NCBI GenBank assembly: GCA_013178415.1
Contig: JABLXA010000005.1
Span: 1-64,000 of the forward strand
Direction: 5' to 3'
Source of the DNA: Bacillota bacterium
GTDB taxonomy: Bacteria > Bacillota > SHA-98 > Ch115
Length of the DNA stretch: 64,000 nucleotides
In this document: positions 234 through 43,755 of the stretch, piece by piece
How the letters are laid out: each line of letters begins with the position of its first letter
Numbering within the stretch: the stretch's first letter is position 1
Translations under genes and position numbers: made by a program
The notes under the pieces: model-generated
Database searches by the model: none
The model's input: the letters and a program-made list of their open reading frames with translations, nothing else
What the model was told of the DNA's origin: nothing

Positions 234-923
234 CTAGCGAAATTCTACGAAGAGTGGGACAAGCTCCAGATCCCTGGCCATAGCCGCAACCTCTATGCTC
301 TTTTCCTCTGACGCTAGGATGAGTAGTGGCGCAAGCGCCCTAAGTTCCCCGCTGATTATATCCTCCACATGATCCCATAGTTTGATAACCCGGTAACTAA
401 ATGCATTGTATCCTCTCCCGCCAAATCTCGCCACATACTCTGCGGGAAGTCTCCTGTAATGTCGCCTCTCAAGATATAATACTGCTGAAATTGTAGGAAG
501 ATCATAAGTCACTGAATAAAATGCATTATACGCAAATACTCTCCTTGGTATAGCCTTAAGGTGCGCGAGCTGGAACTCTGCATGTAATATGGCCCTTTCC
601 TCCCCCCGCTTGATCACCCAGATAAAATCTCCTCTTCTTTGCGGTATATTAACCTCTGGGTTCTCGATGATCTCCGCGGTAATTCCTTCGCTATCTCCCA
701 GCAAGAGTCCTGCAAAATCTCTTGGATAGCGCCTTGCCAGCACCTTCACGCTACGGTCTATCGCGTCCTTTTCCAAACTGTCCTCCACCCCCAATGGTAA
801 TGTGCATGGATGATAAGATAGAGGTACCATGGACAAAATCATCCCCATCCTTGGGGAATGATGTGGAAAGGCATTTATCATTGTAGGGCATATACACTTC
901 TGCCTGATGCCTTCCTGAGCCAT
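234..923 (-). pseudogene. Rpn-family PD-(D/E)XK nuclease / transposase-like protein, C-terminally truncated (copy 1)
   Basis: The protein resembles the Rpn (recombination-promoting nuclease, transposase_31-like) family. RRGDFIWVIKRG followed by ILHAEFQ fits the D...ExQ catalytic core of the PD-(D/E)XK fold. It is closely related to the broken copy at 41795-42809 and the similarity continues into the 5' flank. Relative to copy 2 it loses similarity after IEVAAMARDLE and stops about 10 residues later. The usual C-terminal region with GIEKG-type repeats is therefore missing, probably because of the adjacent transposase DNA. The true start is unclear: conserved protein similarity begins near VEDSLEKDAIDRSVKV, for which GTG at 786-788 is possible. 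Confidence 0.65.
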
Positions 924-1094: not shown

Positions 1095-1540
1095 CTGGCG
1101 CGAAGATTTGGCCACTTTCCGACCAAACATGGCGAATCTTTCGGCACCTCAGACCATGGGTGGCGACTGCTTAGGCAGGTCTTACGTGAAGGTGACGAGG
1201 ATCTTGTCAGTCTCCCTGCCAAGGTGCCGAAACAGTCGTCAGATTGGGTCCATTTTGGCAAGTTCTGGATCAGTCTCACCAGCAGGTGGCAGAGATTTAG
1301 GCGTGTCTTGCTGAGAAGTGGCGGCAGCATCGCCAGTCTTCGCCTTCAGGTGGCAAAATTCCAGTCACCTCATCCTGCAATTGGAATGTCCTAGGAGACG
1401 ATTATCCAAAATAATGAAGTTTATGGTATATAATGGGTCAGGGTGGCGATATTTCGGCCAGTCTGAGCATGAAGGTGGCGATAGCCTAGTCAGCCTTCGC
1501 GCCAAGGTGACGAGAAATCCACCAGCTGCCTCACCCCCTG
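1095..1540 (+). repeat. Degenerate tandem repeat array, 31-32 bp period (array 1)
   Basis: Successive units begin at about 1128, 1159, 1191, 1223, 1254, 1285, 1317, 1349, then 1442, 1474 and 1506, a spacing of 31-32 bp. Each opens with a form of GGTGGCGA (or GGTGACGA), has CAGTCT near positions 18-23 and tends to end in AA. One or two units around 1381-1441 are too diverged to align. The 32 bp period breaks any reading frame, so the array is non-coding. The same motif, strand and period recur at 41334-41564. Function unknown. Confidence 0.7.
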
Positions 1541-28627: not shown

Positions 28628-28664
28628 TAATAAAAGACCCCGGCGCGTTTTCCCACGCTCGGGG
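28628..28664 (-). terminator. Intrinsic terminator at the 3' end of OLE RNA
   Basis: On the minus strand CCCCG.GCGT, a GGGAAA loop and ACGC.C.CGGGG are followed by TCTTTTATT. It lies only about 4 bp from the oapA ribosome site, so oapA must be made by read-through or after processing. Confidence 0.7.
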
Positions 28665-29287
28665 CGGCGGGTGGCATCACGTTGAGTAAATATTGTGCCT
28701 TCAGGTCTAGCTAGTTTTCCTAGCGATACACCACAGCGTTACCGCCATGGCGGTTTCCCTTTACGATCGCTCCCTGATGTCGCCAGTCAGAGGGCTAGAT
28801 TGCCACTTAGTGCACACCGCAATCCCCAACGTGGCCCGATAGCGAACAGCCTAGGAGTTTTCCTCAACGGCGCCTTCCGACCTCTAGCCTCTTTTGCGAT
28901 CAGGCTTTCAGACACCCCCAAAATCCCCGGATATCAAATCCGGATAGCTCTAGGATATCATCCCGCGCTGACCGCGCAAGGCAGGCTACACTGCACCCAG
29001 CACAGCCTAGGACAATCGCTCCTGGTATAGCACCGAGTGCAGGTTTTATCCCAAGCCGTAATGCGTTCACTGAGCCAGGAGCACCACGTACTTGGGTCTC
29101 CGCGAAGACAGGGTCCACGCCCGCATGCCATTGCGGATCGCCCAATCTTCTTAACCCCCAGCACCAACCCCCGACTGGGCGTCGGAAGCCAGCACCAGGG
29201 ACTTCATCGATGTGCCCTTGACGGATTTTTAGGCCCGTCCTTGAGATCGGTGGCACCGACTAGGATACTGCGCCACCCACCCATGCA
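28628..29287 (-). ncRNA. ole: OLE RNA (ornate, large, extremophilic RNA)
   Basis: A 717-bp stretch without a credible gene lies between ispA and oapA, the conserved site of OLE RNA in Firmicutes. It has its own promoter (29294-29322) and an intrinsic terminator, giving an RNA of about 660 nt; OLE RNAs are about 600-650 nt. The sequence is full of stems: GGTGGC/GCCACC at the 5' end, CCGGAT/ATCCGG around 28926-28942, and a 3' stem capped by ACCGCCATGGCGGT. OLE RNA forms a membrane-bound complex with OapA and affects growth under cold, alcohol and Mg2+ stress. I cannot run a covariance model; placement, length and neighbours are the evidence. Confidence 0.85.
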
Positions 29288-29293
29288 GGTGAT

Positions 29294-40117: not shown

Positions 40118-41209
40118 TCACCGTGCTATGCCCCATTTTCCTGAAACCTGAACCTCCCCTCCGACTCCTCGGTCCGTCATAGCTCTTTCTATTTCCCCGT
40201 CAAGATCGCTGAGACACCGCCCGGAATTGTCATATATACCTGATATCGTGCCCGGAGACGGTACCCTGCTTAAGAGCACTATGCGTGGAAATGCCCCTTC
40301 TTCCAGTAACTCCATAAAGCCCCGGCGGATGCACAGTTCCTTTAAGCTCCCCGCATGAGCTGTGGCAAGTACGCTGACACCGGCATTCAATGCCTCCCTC
40401 AAAGCCTCCAAATCCTCCCGGCCACCAATCTCGTCCGTGGCAATGACAGAAGGGGAAAGGGTCCTGAGGGCCATTATCAAACCTCGGGCCTTGGGGCACC
40501 TATCCAACACTACTGTGGTAGGACCTACGTCTAGTTGTGGTTCCCCCTCATGGCATGCAGCAATCTCATTTCTTTCATCTATGACAGCTATATTCGAACC
40601 AGGAAATCCTAAACGTGAAATGCCGTAGCTTGCCTGCCTGATCATATCTCGCAATATCGTAGTCTTGCCAGCCCCTGGAGGAGAGATGATAAGCGTTGAT
40701 AGCAGTGATAGACCATCCTGCGAAATGCAATAGGGCATGATGGCATCCGCGCATCCTTTTATCTCCCTTGAAACACGGAAAATGAAGCCGGTCACCTCTC
40801 TGAGGGTGAATCCACCATCACGCCCTAACGCCATTTTTCCGGCAAGTCCGACTCGGTGCCCTCCTTTGAGAGTGATGAATCCATTTCTGAGTTCCTCTTC
40901 CAATGCATAGGTTGATCCGAAGGTCACAATTTGAAAAGTCTTTCTGGCAGTATCATGATCAAAAACAAATGCCTCATCAGGCCGCTGCACGATGCTGCCA
41001 TGTTTCCCAAGAAACCATCGGCCCTGCGGAGTTACTAGGGTCACAGGCCTACCTGCTAGCGCCCTGATATCCAATATTTGACCCAGGGTTGCATCGGGCA
41101 GCGATAGAAGCTTCTCCCGGACTGGTGAAGCAATATATGGCGCAATCTCCTTTCTTATGCGGATCGAGGCTGCGATCTCGACCTTCACTATCTCCCACCC
41201 CTGCCAGGG
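40118..41209 (-). CDS. spoIIIAA: Stage III sporulation protein AA, secretion-type ATPase
   Basis: About 363 aa from ATG 41209, which follows AGGAG by four bases. ATG 41284 (388 aa) is an alternative, and the still longer frame runs into repeat array 2. Walker A is LIISPPGAGKTTILRDMIR and Walker B is in SPSVIATDEIGG; ALNAGVSVLATAHAGS is also typical. It powers the mother-cell-to-forespore channel. It is the first gene of spoIIIAA-AH. In Clostridia it usually sits right after efp; here about 2 kb of Rpn and repeat DNA intervenes. Confidence 0.93.
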   Translation of the reverse strand, partial: PWQGWEIVKVEIAASIRIRKEIAPYIASPVREKLLSLPDATLGQILDIRALAGRPVTLVTPQGRWFLGKHGSIVQRPDEAFVFDHDTARKTFQIVTFGSTYALEEELRNGFITLKGGHRVGLAGKMALGRDGGFTLREVTGFIFRVSREIKGCADAIMPYCISQDGLSLLSTLIISPPGAGKTTILRDMIRQASYGISRLGFPGSNIAVIDERNEIAACHEGEPQLDVGPTTVVLDRCPKARGLIMALRTLSPSVIATDEIGGREDLEALREALNAGVSVLATAHAGSLKELCIRRGFMELLEEGAFPRIVLLSRVPSPGTISGIYDNSGRCLSDLDGEIERAMTDRGVGGEVQVSGKWGIAR

Positions 41210-41333
41210 CATGCATCTCCTATTGTTTCCTTGCAGATCACAATAGACCCTTCTTAAGGCATATTTAAGATGCTCCTTCTCCATTCCTCTTAATTTGGAC
41301 AAATGAGTTGCGCAAAATATCGACGCTCTTCTC

Positions 41334-41564
41334 GGTGTCGCGGCGAGGTCTTCGACAGGTCGGGCCGGTTTTGATAGATCTTCGGTCGATTTCACCACCA
41401 CCAGTGTGACGAAGATTTGGGCAGGTCTCGCTGAAAAGTGACGATATTTTCGCCAGTGTAGGCGAAAAGGTGGAAATATATCAGCCACCCTGAACCGAAA
41501 GGTGACGATCATCCAGCCAGCCTTCGCTCGATGCTCACGCGATCTTCGCCATCTCAGAGAAATG
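41334..41564 (+). repeat. Degenerate tandem repeat array, 32 bp period (array 2)
   Basis: Units start at 41405, 41437, 41469, 41501 and 41533, exactly 32 bp apart, with less regular units at 41334 and 41367. The motif is the same as in array 1, on the same strand: GGTGACGA at the start, CAG at positions 18-20 and an A-rich end. It lies just upstream of spoIIIAA and about 230 bp before Rpn copy 2. Confidence 0.65.
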
Positions 41565-41794
41565 GCCCTAATCCTTAGCATATATAGAAGATATTTGAAG
41601 CGGTGACTAGCATATCTCAGGTTCTACCAGATAAATGGCTACTATGGATTTCAGGGTGGATCTATCCTTGATTTATGGGATTTGATTCCATGGACACCAT
41701 TAGATAGTATGGCTATGAGAAGGCATCAAGCAGAAGTACATATGCCCATGATAATGAATATCCTTCCACATCGTTACCCTGGAGCTTGAGATAG

Positions 41795-42809
41795 GTGGTC
41801 CCTTGTGACATCCGCCCATGCATTTCAGGTGCATCGCCCTTGGAGGTGGAGGATAGTTTGGACAACAGCGCGATAGATCGTAGCGTAAAGGTACTGGCAA
41901 GGCGTTATCCAAGAGATTTTGCAGGACTTTTGCTAGGGAGTAGCGAAGGAATTGACGCAGAGATCATTGAGAACCCGGAGGTAAACATACCCCAAAGGAG
42001 GGGAGACTTTATCTGGGTAGTCAAGCGGGGGAAGGAAAGGGCCATATTACATGCAGAGTTCCAGCTTAGACATAATAAAGCCATACCAAAGAGGCTATTT
42101 GCGTATAATGCATTTTACTCAGTGACCTATGATCTTCCTGTGATTTAGCAGTATTATATCTTGAGAAGAAAGACTATGAAAGGCTTCCCACGGAGTACAT
42201 GGCGAGATTTGGCGGGAGAGGATATAATGCATTCAGTTACCGGGTCATCAAACTATGGGATCATGTGGAGGATATAGTGAGAGGGGATCTGAGGGCGCTT
42301 GCGCCGCTTCTTATCTTGGCATCGGAAGAGAGGAGCATTGAGGTTGTTGAATAGCCAAGGAGCTCATTAGTCAGGAGAAAGATATAAAGAGACGTGCGGA
42401 TGCATTGTCAGTGACTATGATGGTGGCAGAGAGGTATCTTGATAGAGACGTATTGCTGAGACTCTTCAGGGGGGATTTAGCCATGCTAGTGAAGGAATCA
42501 AGCTTTGTGCAGGATTGGATTAATGAGGGGAGACGGAGAGGTCTGGCTGAGGGAATAAGGAAAGGCGTTGAACAAGGGATTGAAAAGGGAATTGAGAAGG
42601 GGATTGAGAAGGGTGAAATCCTGGCTTTGCAAAATGCCATATTAGATGTACTTGAGGAGCGGTTTGGGATGGTGGATGAAGGTTTAGGGAGACAATTGCG
42701 AGCTGTTGATGACTTAAAACTTTTGAAATCTCTGCACAGGATGAGCATCAAGGCCTTGAGCGTAGACGACTTTCGGGCGGAGATAGCAAAGACCCTGCCC
42801 ATTCAATGA
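41795..42809 (+). pseudogene. Rpn-family nuclease / transposase-like gene with two frameshifts (copy 2)
   Basis: The segments 41795-42148, about 42149-42354 and about 42353-42809 in three frames together give one Rpn-family protein of about 335 aa. Compared with copy 1, one base is missing at 42146-42147 (ATT TCA GCA became ATTTAGCA) and a second indel lies near 42343-42353. The catalytic core (RRGDFIWVVKRG, ILHAEFQ) is present. The C-terminal part has the GIEKGIEKGIEKG repeat and the ILDVLEERFG helix that are common in this family. Similarity to copy 1 starts in the upstream flank near 41640. The gene interrupts the usual efp-spoIIIAA neighbourhood. Confidence 0.8.
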
Positions 42810-42934
42810 CCACCTGGCCCATTCGACATGGAGGAGCGTAAGAGACTCTCAAAGCCGGGCAACCAGCAGCGCAATATTTGGGCACTCCGCCAATTGAAGG
42901 CCCCTTTCAGCATTGATCAGGGAAGACTAGTATG

Positions 42935-43053
42935 GAGGGGTTGGGATACTCCTCCCGGCGGCATTGGTCCGAGGCCTTATAGCCTGAGGGCCGAGGACCA
43001 CTGAGCAGCCCCGCAGCAGGGCTGCGTCCGACGGGAGGAGTATCCATCCCCTC
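42935..43053. repeat. Long inverted repeat (about 22-bp arms) downstream of efp
   Basis: The arm at 42935-42957 (ending GGGATACTCCTCCCG) and the arm at 43032-43053 (starting CGGGAGGAGTATCC) are complementary with one indel. The 74-bp loop itself holds GGTCC/GGACC and the hairpin at 43005-43025. In RNA it would fold into one large structure. Confidence 0.7.
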
Positions 43054-43144
43054 CGCCACCTCGGATCACAGAGCGACCTGCAGCAAGGTCGCGTCCGATG
43101 GGACAATACCACCATCACCTAGCCACGCCGCGTCCATCAGGGAA
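43005..43144. repeat. Three copies of a small hairpin element followed by GCGTCC...GGGA
   Basis: GCAGCCC-loop-GGGCTGC (43005-43025) and GCGACCT-loop-AGGTCGC (43073-43092) share the loop GCAGCA, and each runs into CGTCCGAYGGGA. A third, shorter copy of the tail is at 43127-43144. Stems differ in sequence while pairing is kept, which suggests selection for structure. Confidence 0.6.
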
Positions 43145-43197
43145 ACATCGCTGACCCGAAGCTGCTGGCTAACACCATAAAAGAGGGACAGGCATCG

Positions 43198-43755
43198 CTA
43201 GAGTCTCTCGAGATACTGGTCCGTCCTGGTATCCACCCGGATCAAGTCCCCGGTATTAATGAAAAGTGGCACCTGCACAACCGCTCCTGTTTCGAGACGT
43301 GCTGGCTTTGAGCCTCCCTGCGCAGTATCTCCCCTTACGCCTGGATCAGTTTCTACTACTTTGAGATCGACGAAATTCGGAAGCTCAACCCCTATAGGAG
43401 CGCCTTCATACATGAGAATGCCGAGTACCATGTTTTCCTTGAGATACTTAACAGCATCGCCCAGCTTTTCTTTGTTCAGCGTCATCTGTTCGTATGTCGC
43501 TGTATCCATAAAATAGTAATCATCATCTGAACTGTACAGATATTGCATCTCCCTGTAATCTATATGGGCCCTCGGAAGCTTCTCCCCCGCCCTGAAGGTT
43601 CTCTCGATCACATGCCCGGTTTTTACATTCTTGAGTCTGGACCTCACAAAAGCTGATCCTTTTCCTGGCTTGACATGCTGGAAATCAACTACCTGATAGA
43701 CTTCACCTTCCACTTCTATGGTGACACCCGTCTTGAAGTCATTTGTGCTTATCAT
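43198..43755 (-). CDS. efp: Translation elongation factor P
   Basis: 185 aa, three domains. [17 protein letters not shown] carries the conserved tip Lys (about residue 32), and RTDQYLERL ends the protein as usual. It relieves ribosome stalling at polyproline. No modification enzyme is encoded nearby. It follows pepP by about 107 bp, the standard order. Confidence 0.97.

Follow-up and report, generated by a model that had tools for sequence, protein, structure and literature searches.

Helically phased arrays of 17-bp dyads dispersed through a Bacillota genome, probable sites for an unidentified dimeric protein

On plasmids, iterons and partition-site arrays such as parC and the omega heptads consist of sites for a single protein that are repeated in tandem and in helical phase. 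In NtrC-type enhancers, dyads are paired at a distance of three helical turns, and binding is cooperative along one side of the helix. The ram motif has the form of a short inverted repeat. The protein RacA, which oligomerises, binds to ram sites, and the DNA is thereby condensed and anchored (PMC6593407). Tolerance of whole-turn changes in spacing has been proposed as a fingerprint of sigma-54 enhancers (PMC4740811), while the REP, BIME and REPIN elements are dispersed intergenic palindromes that occur in clusters and in lineage-specific sequence versions (PMC3116915). Here, we analyse an array of diverged 17-bp dyads near the start of a 64,000-nucleotide window (the whole stretch of DNA that was examined) from a Bacillota genome of 3.57 Mb in 57 contigs, together with its copies in the same genome and in relatives. 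We found no earlier description of such arrays in the open-access literature; subscription papers were not covered.

The array at positions 1096-1538

A preliminary description had proposed at least ten degenerate units at a 31-32 bp spacing. We built a 32-bp profile from 247 training units, all of them from other arrays, and excluded the window from training because a profile that included it would have been circular. Between positions 1000 and 1700, this profile matched at 1097, 1129, 1160, 1192, 1224, 1255, 1286, 1318, 1350, 1443, 1475, and 1507, with steps of 32, 31, 32, 32, 31, 31, 32, 32, 93, 32, and 32 bp. Shuffling this sequence 500 times with dinucleotides preserved gave 0.11 matches on average and never more than 2, against 12 in the actual sequence; periodicity equal to that of the array, which would have refuted it, is absent from the shuffles, and the array (1096-1538, + strand) is confirmed as real. 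The estimate of at least ten units is borne out by the 12 found, but the spacing is not 31-32 bp throughout, since one step of 93 bp, or three periods, interrupts it. From the first match to the last, 410 bp are spanned over 39 helical turns, i.e., 10.51 bp per turn. Tandem Repeats Finder gave no report at the array, because the copies are too diverged.

The GGTGRCGA box that had been singled out as the anchor is indeed conserved, but the whole conserved unit is a 17-bp dyad with an AT-rich centre, TGRC-N9-GYCA, and the box covers just its left half. Units 2 to 5 are dyads at 1130-1146 (TGGCGAATCTTTCGGCA), 1161-1177 (TGGCGACTGCTTAGGCA), 1193-1209 (TGACGAGGATCTTGTCA), and 1225-1241 (TGCCGAAACAGTCGTCA). 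These are supported by both sequence and profile, as are units 8 (1319-1335, TGGCGGCAGCATCGCCA), 9 (1351-1367, TGGCAAAATTCCAGTCA), 10 (1444-1460, TGGCGATATTTCGGCCA), and 11 (1476-1492, TGGCGATAGCCTAGTCA), whereas the dyad of unit 7 (1287-1303) rests on the profile. Unit 1 (1096-1114, profile 7.3 bits) is an atypical dyad, recognised from its sequence, with a centre 2 bp longer (TGGC-N11-GCCA). Unit 6 (1256-1272), the weak match at 1255, is degenerate and scores 5.8 bits; it is in register and lies inside a 62-bp spacer that is conserved in 15 copies. Unit 12 (1508-1524, TGACGAGAAATCCACCA) is a weak dyad of 8.7 bits. No strand was assigned to the individual units.

The 93-bp step contains a second array element that is unlike the dyads, an AT-rich conserved segment at about 1380-1438 (+ strand; ATTGGAA...TTATCCA...TTTATGGTATAT). 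Its identity over 15 copies is 81%, against 59% for the linkers (p=1e-8), and the segment and its counterparts in other copies may be bound by a second protein. A DnaA box was considered here and rejected: TTATCCA is conserved, but the CA after it is not.

The window holds another array of this family, which is shorter and lies at about 41308-41533 (+ strand), overlapping the predicted 5' end of spoIIIAA (minus strand, 40118-41401). Its neighbour on the other side is the broken copy of a gene that looks like one for a nuclease or transposase and is also present in the window at 234-923 (minus strand); array and broken gene together fall between the spoIIIA operon and efp (40118-43755). The gene at 234-923 has no Pfam or NCBIfam match. 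Its copies in this genome (G000) are at C5:41590-42346 and C1:270744-271526, with a fragment at C8:6301-6382. In 4 of 4 places it is within about 3 kb of an array, in three of them within about 60 bp. Frameshifts have disrupted two of its three long copies. The window also carries a member of a different family of dispersed intergenic repeats, about 200 bp long (42937-43135; further members at L015 8379-8575, L018 5528-5661, and L019 5517-5651) and a full-length OLE RNA (RF01071) at 28655-29292 on the minus strand (461.5 bits).

Copies, relatives and helical phasing

DNA, pattern, and profile searches placed arrays at about 28 intergenic loci in this genome, of which the stretches around arrays were the sequence analysed. 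A two-unit pattern gave 65 + 52 = 117 matches, and its reversed control gave 0 + 0. Twenty copies match a 347-bp core nearly full length, with a layout that is largely fixed: 32 and 31 bp alternating, then 32, 32, 62, 32, 32, 93, 32, and 32 bp. We aligned 15 copies of the core with a single 2-bp indel; their pairwise identity ranges from 54% to 90%, with a median of 68%. Across these paralogous copies, mean identity is 91% at the strict dyad bases but 59% in the linkers (p=7e-15), with the AT-rich segment at 81% and the 62-bp spacer at 68%. The dyads were therefore kept after duplication, while the linkers drifted.

The absence of further copies from related genomes would have spoken against the array, but relatives do carry them. 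The same design occurs in G002 and G003, which belong to the same order as this genome, and in G009 of the same class, whose array places, match counts, and sequences are those of Firmicutes bacterium UBA6811, the only real array relative to emerge from a pattern scan of a species collection. G258, of the same phylum, is probably a fourth related genome with arrays. In other phyla and in viral contigs, nearly all pattern matches were exact tandem repeats or single chance matches, with no phased, drifting arrays. G001, of the same family as this genome, has no match to either pattern, and the array system is therefore probably dispensable.

Each relative has a layout of its own: 32/41/52/84 bp in UBA6811, 32/42/52/73 bp in G002, 32/41/42/74 bp in G003, and 22/32/54 bp in G258. 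All are near whole turns, with 32, 41, 52, and 73 bp corresponding to 3, 4, 5, and 7 turns. The third base of the motif is also particular to the genome, being mostly R here (180 of 206) and mostly C in G003 (35 of 38). Such a difference is what one would expect if all arrays of a genome are read by a single trans-acting protein, although this is an inference.

The preliminary description had also read the spacing as about three turns of B-DNA, with the boxes on one face of the helix. We examined distances between dyad pairs up to 200 bp apart and obtained a best period of 10.49 bp in this genome (R 0.91, 626 pairs), 10.51 bp in UBA6811 (R 0.90, 318 pairs), 10.53 bp in G002 (R 0.90, 35 pairs), and 10.54 bp in G003 (R 0.88, 117 pairs); G258 alone was too sparse and was left out. 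These values, like that of the window array itself, support the reading. The relatives had been found with a pattern that demanded a 31-32 bp spacing, and we repeated the test without spacings of 31-33 bp because the search had required them. The phasing survived: the 115 other consecutive spacings gave R 0.88, and none of 20,000 random sets exceeded 0.29. With each spacing length counted once per genome, R was 0.78, a value reached in 0 of 100,000 random sets. Spacings within one genome are not independent, because the arrays there are paralogous, and the independent units of this test are four genomes rather than 28 copies. The agreement between genomes despite their different layouts is the stronger argument for phasing. 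The arrays show two features of a helically phased multi-site protein-binding array: site-to-site distances are whole helical turns, and recognition positions are conserved while linkers are free. The DNA helical repeat can here be read from genome sequence, with four genomes of different layouts all yielding 10.5 bp per turn from dyad positions.

Gene surroundings and alternative explanations

Genes were called with a simple hexamer model, not by full annotation. On these calls, 10 arrays lie between divergent genes, 6 between convergent genes, and 10 in tandem settings; because all three occur, no single regulatory logic fits. The neighbouring genes have no common theme and encode a Gfo/Idh/MocA oxidoreductase, PolA, an SLH protein, a response regulator, a PrpR-type activator, the ATP synthase gamma subunit, a polyprenyl synthetase, and SpoIIIAA. 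Array orientation showed no bias with respect to GC skew (positive at 17 of 28, p=0.34, on 57 unordered contigs), and no promoter or terminator was found above chance inside the array.

The arrays might serve as enhancers or operators, with the dyads bound by a regulator, for instance a sigma-54 activator of the NtrC type, that controls the neighbouring genes. The geometry invites this idea: NtrC-type activators bind 17-bp dyads, and glnA has two such sites at a distance of 32 bp. Sigma-54 is present in this genome, one array is 112 bp upstream of the gene for a PrpR-type sigma-54 activator, and in tandem settings arrays run in the same direction as the genes by 9 to 1. We nonetheless hold this explanation to be distinctly unlikely: sigma-54-like promoters are not enriched in the 450-bp array flanks (8 seen, 12.8 expected), sigma-54 (PF04552) is equally present in array-free relatives, and neither the six convergent settings nor the mixed neighbours suit it. 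Mobility raises a different possibility. An array lies between atpA and atpG (L171 3867-7244) in a gap of 826 bp, compared with about 80 bp in G001, and therefore looks like an insertion. Two further copies, L041 and L042, are 99.8% identical over 827 bp; their inverted ends are imperfect and start with CTAG. Some arrays, at least, are thus mobile. The arrays could thus be a selfish mobile element without host function, spread through dyads that are binding sites for a transposase or recombinase; the roughly 28 dispersed copies, the layout amplified separately in each genome, and the nuclease- or transposase-looking ORF within about 60 bp of three arrays also point this way. Against it, common ends and target duplications are absent except in the L041/L042 pair, whose ends belong to a separate small repeat (CTAG-N7-CTCG-N-AAAC, imperfect) flanking the array at L041 5095-5921 and L042 5634-6458; this repeat seems to have taken the array along to another site within a unit of 827 bp. 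A MITE would have terminal inverted repeats and a target duplication on every copy, which is not met. The RAYT/Y1 transposase (PF01797) is absent from G000, G002, and G003, although present in G009 and G258, and of the three long copies of the companion ORF, two are broken. Dyads are conserved even in old copies (54-70% identity), which is unexpected of dead transposon copies. We regard a purely selfish origin as unlikely, and it would still be unusual because helical phasing has been kept in those old copies. Both the selfish and the enhancer or operator explanations remain possible.

Every dyad could also form a hairpin, and folding z-scores of about -2.1 to -2.2 on both strands would be compatible with a non-coding RNA that folds into successive hairpins. 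The strands fold alike, however, as palindromes should, and free consensus folding gives long-range pairs, as expected of repeated palindromes. In an explicit stem model, stem pairs were formed in 77.4% of cells, compared with 78.0% when partners were shuffled; there is no covariation, and nearly every copy has mismatches at several of the stem positions. Rfam had no hit in the window array at the gathering score and none for the L012 copy at E up to 1. An RNA also gives no reason for helical-turn spacing. The hairpin explanation is already largely refuted, and we consider it very improbable. CRISPR, a degenerate coding repeat, and chance have only the short, regular repeats in their favour, and are already refuted. 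The copies are diverged; dyads are conserved and spacers are homologous between arrays; the period is not a multiple of 3, and the reading frames are short and interrupted; the reversed-pattern control is empty, and shuffles have no more than 2 matches against 12. Neither a coding nor an RNA repeat explains the 3/4/5/7-turn layouts of the relatives. The earlier suggestion of protein binding, as opposed to CRISPR or a coding repeat, gains support from the phasing and the whole-turn layouts, although binding itself is inferred, and RemA and mIHF, the binders it named, gain no such support.

An array of sites for a dimeric protein, and its known counterparts

We think it probable that the locus is a non-coding, cooperative array of sites for one two-fold symmetric (dimeric), sequence-specific protein that is as yet unidentified. 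The dyads, their phasing and dispersal, their conservation above the linkers, and the genome-specific motif are established at the level of sequence. A single dimeric protein, its cooperative binding, and an architectural or long-range regulatory role as a nucleoprotein complex are inferred, without binding data and with no binding protein found. A dimeric DNA-binding protein is the best explanation for the two-fold symmetry, because stem pairs do not co-vary and stem positions are mismatched.

We suggest that dimers would bind one per 17-bp dyad (TGNC-N-A-N5-T-N-GNCA). With successive dyads 2, 3, 4, 5, 6, 7, or 9 whole turns apart, bound dimers would stack along one DNA face and could touch, and contacts between neighbours might build a cooperative filament or bundle. 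Such a structure could bend the DNA or, by further inference, bridge to other arrays. The element has been copied to about 28 intergenic places here and amplified separately in relatives, where the motif version differs from genome to genome; among the copies here, dyads and helical register are kept, presumably under selection, while linkers drift. Should a single protein occupy hundreds of these sites, these bacteria, for which no major DNA-organising or regulatory factor has been described, would have one. Through the genome-specific third base, the co-evolution of a DNA-binding protein with hundreds of sites could be studied.

More speculatively, the arrays could form the chromosomal component of a system, so far undescribed, that organises the chromosome in a mostly uncultured Bacillota lineage, and in which a protein whose specificity shifts from genome to genome holds tens of dispersed, phased arrays together while the arrays spread and co-evolve with it. 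We offer this as a possibility, though a rather doubtful one; if true, it would be a bacterial counterpart of satellite-based heterochromatin or of multi-site centromeres.

As REPINs, MITEs, structured RNAs, or sigma-54 enhancers, the arrays fail a tested feature in each case. The arrays share intergenic dispersal, palindromes, clusters, and lineage-specific versions with REP, BIME, and REPIN elements, but REPINs are tied to RAYT transposases, which three array-bearing genomes lack, and the arrays keep whole-turn spacing rather than single-strand pairing. In their possible working, they may resemble RacA-ram sites, enhancer dyads, and plasmid iterons, with membership in none of these shown. 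As with RacA and ram in Bacillus subtilis, many sites for one DNA-binding protein would be spread over the chromosome; here, however, they form tight, helix-phased groups of 10-20, and the ram motif differs from the 17-bp dyad TGNC-N9-GNCA. Like NtrC-type enhancers, the arrays have 17-bp dyads three helical turns apart, but at least 10 dyads per array, about 28 arrays, mixed gene settings, and no enrichment of sigma-54 promoters. No Rep or Par gene was seen beside the arrays examined. With plasmid iterons and partition sites the arrays have tandem, helically phased sites in common, but they are chromosomal and stand at tens of dispersed places.
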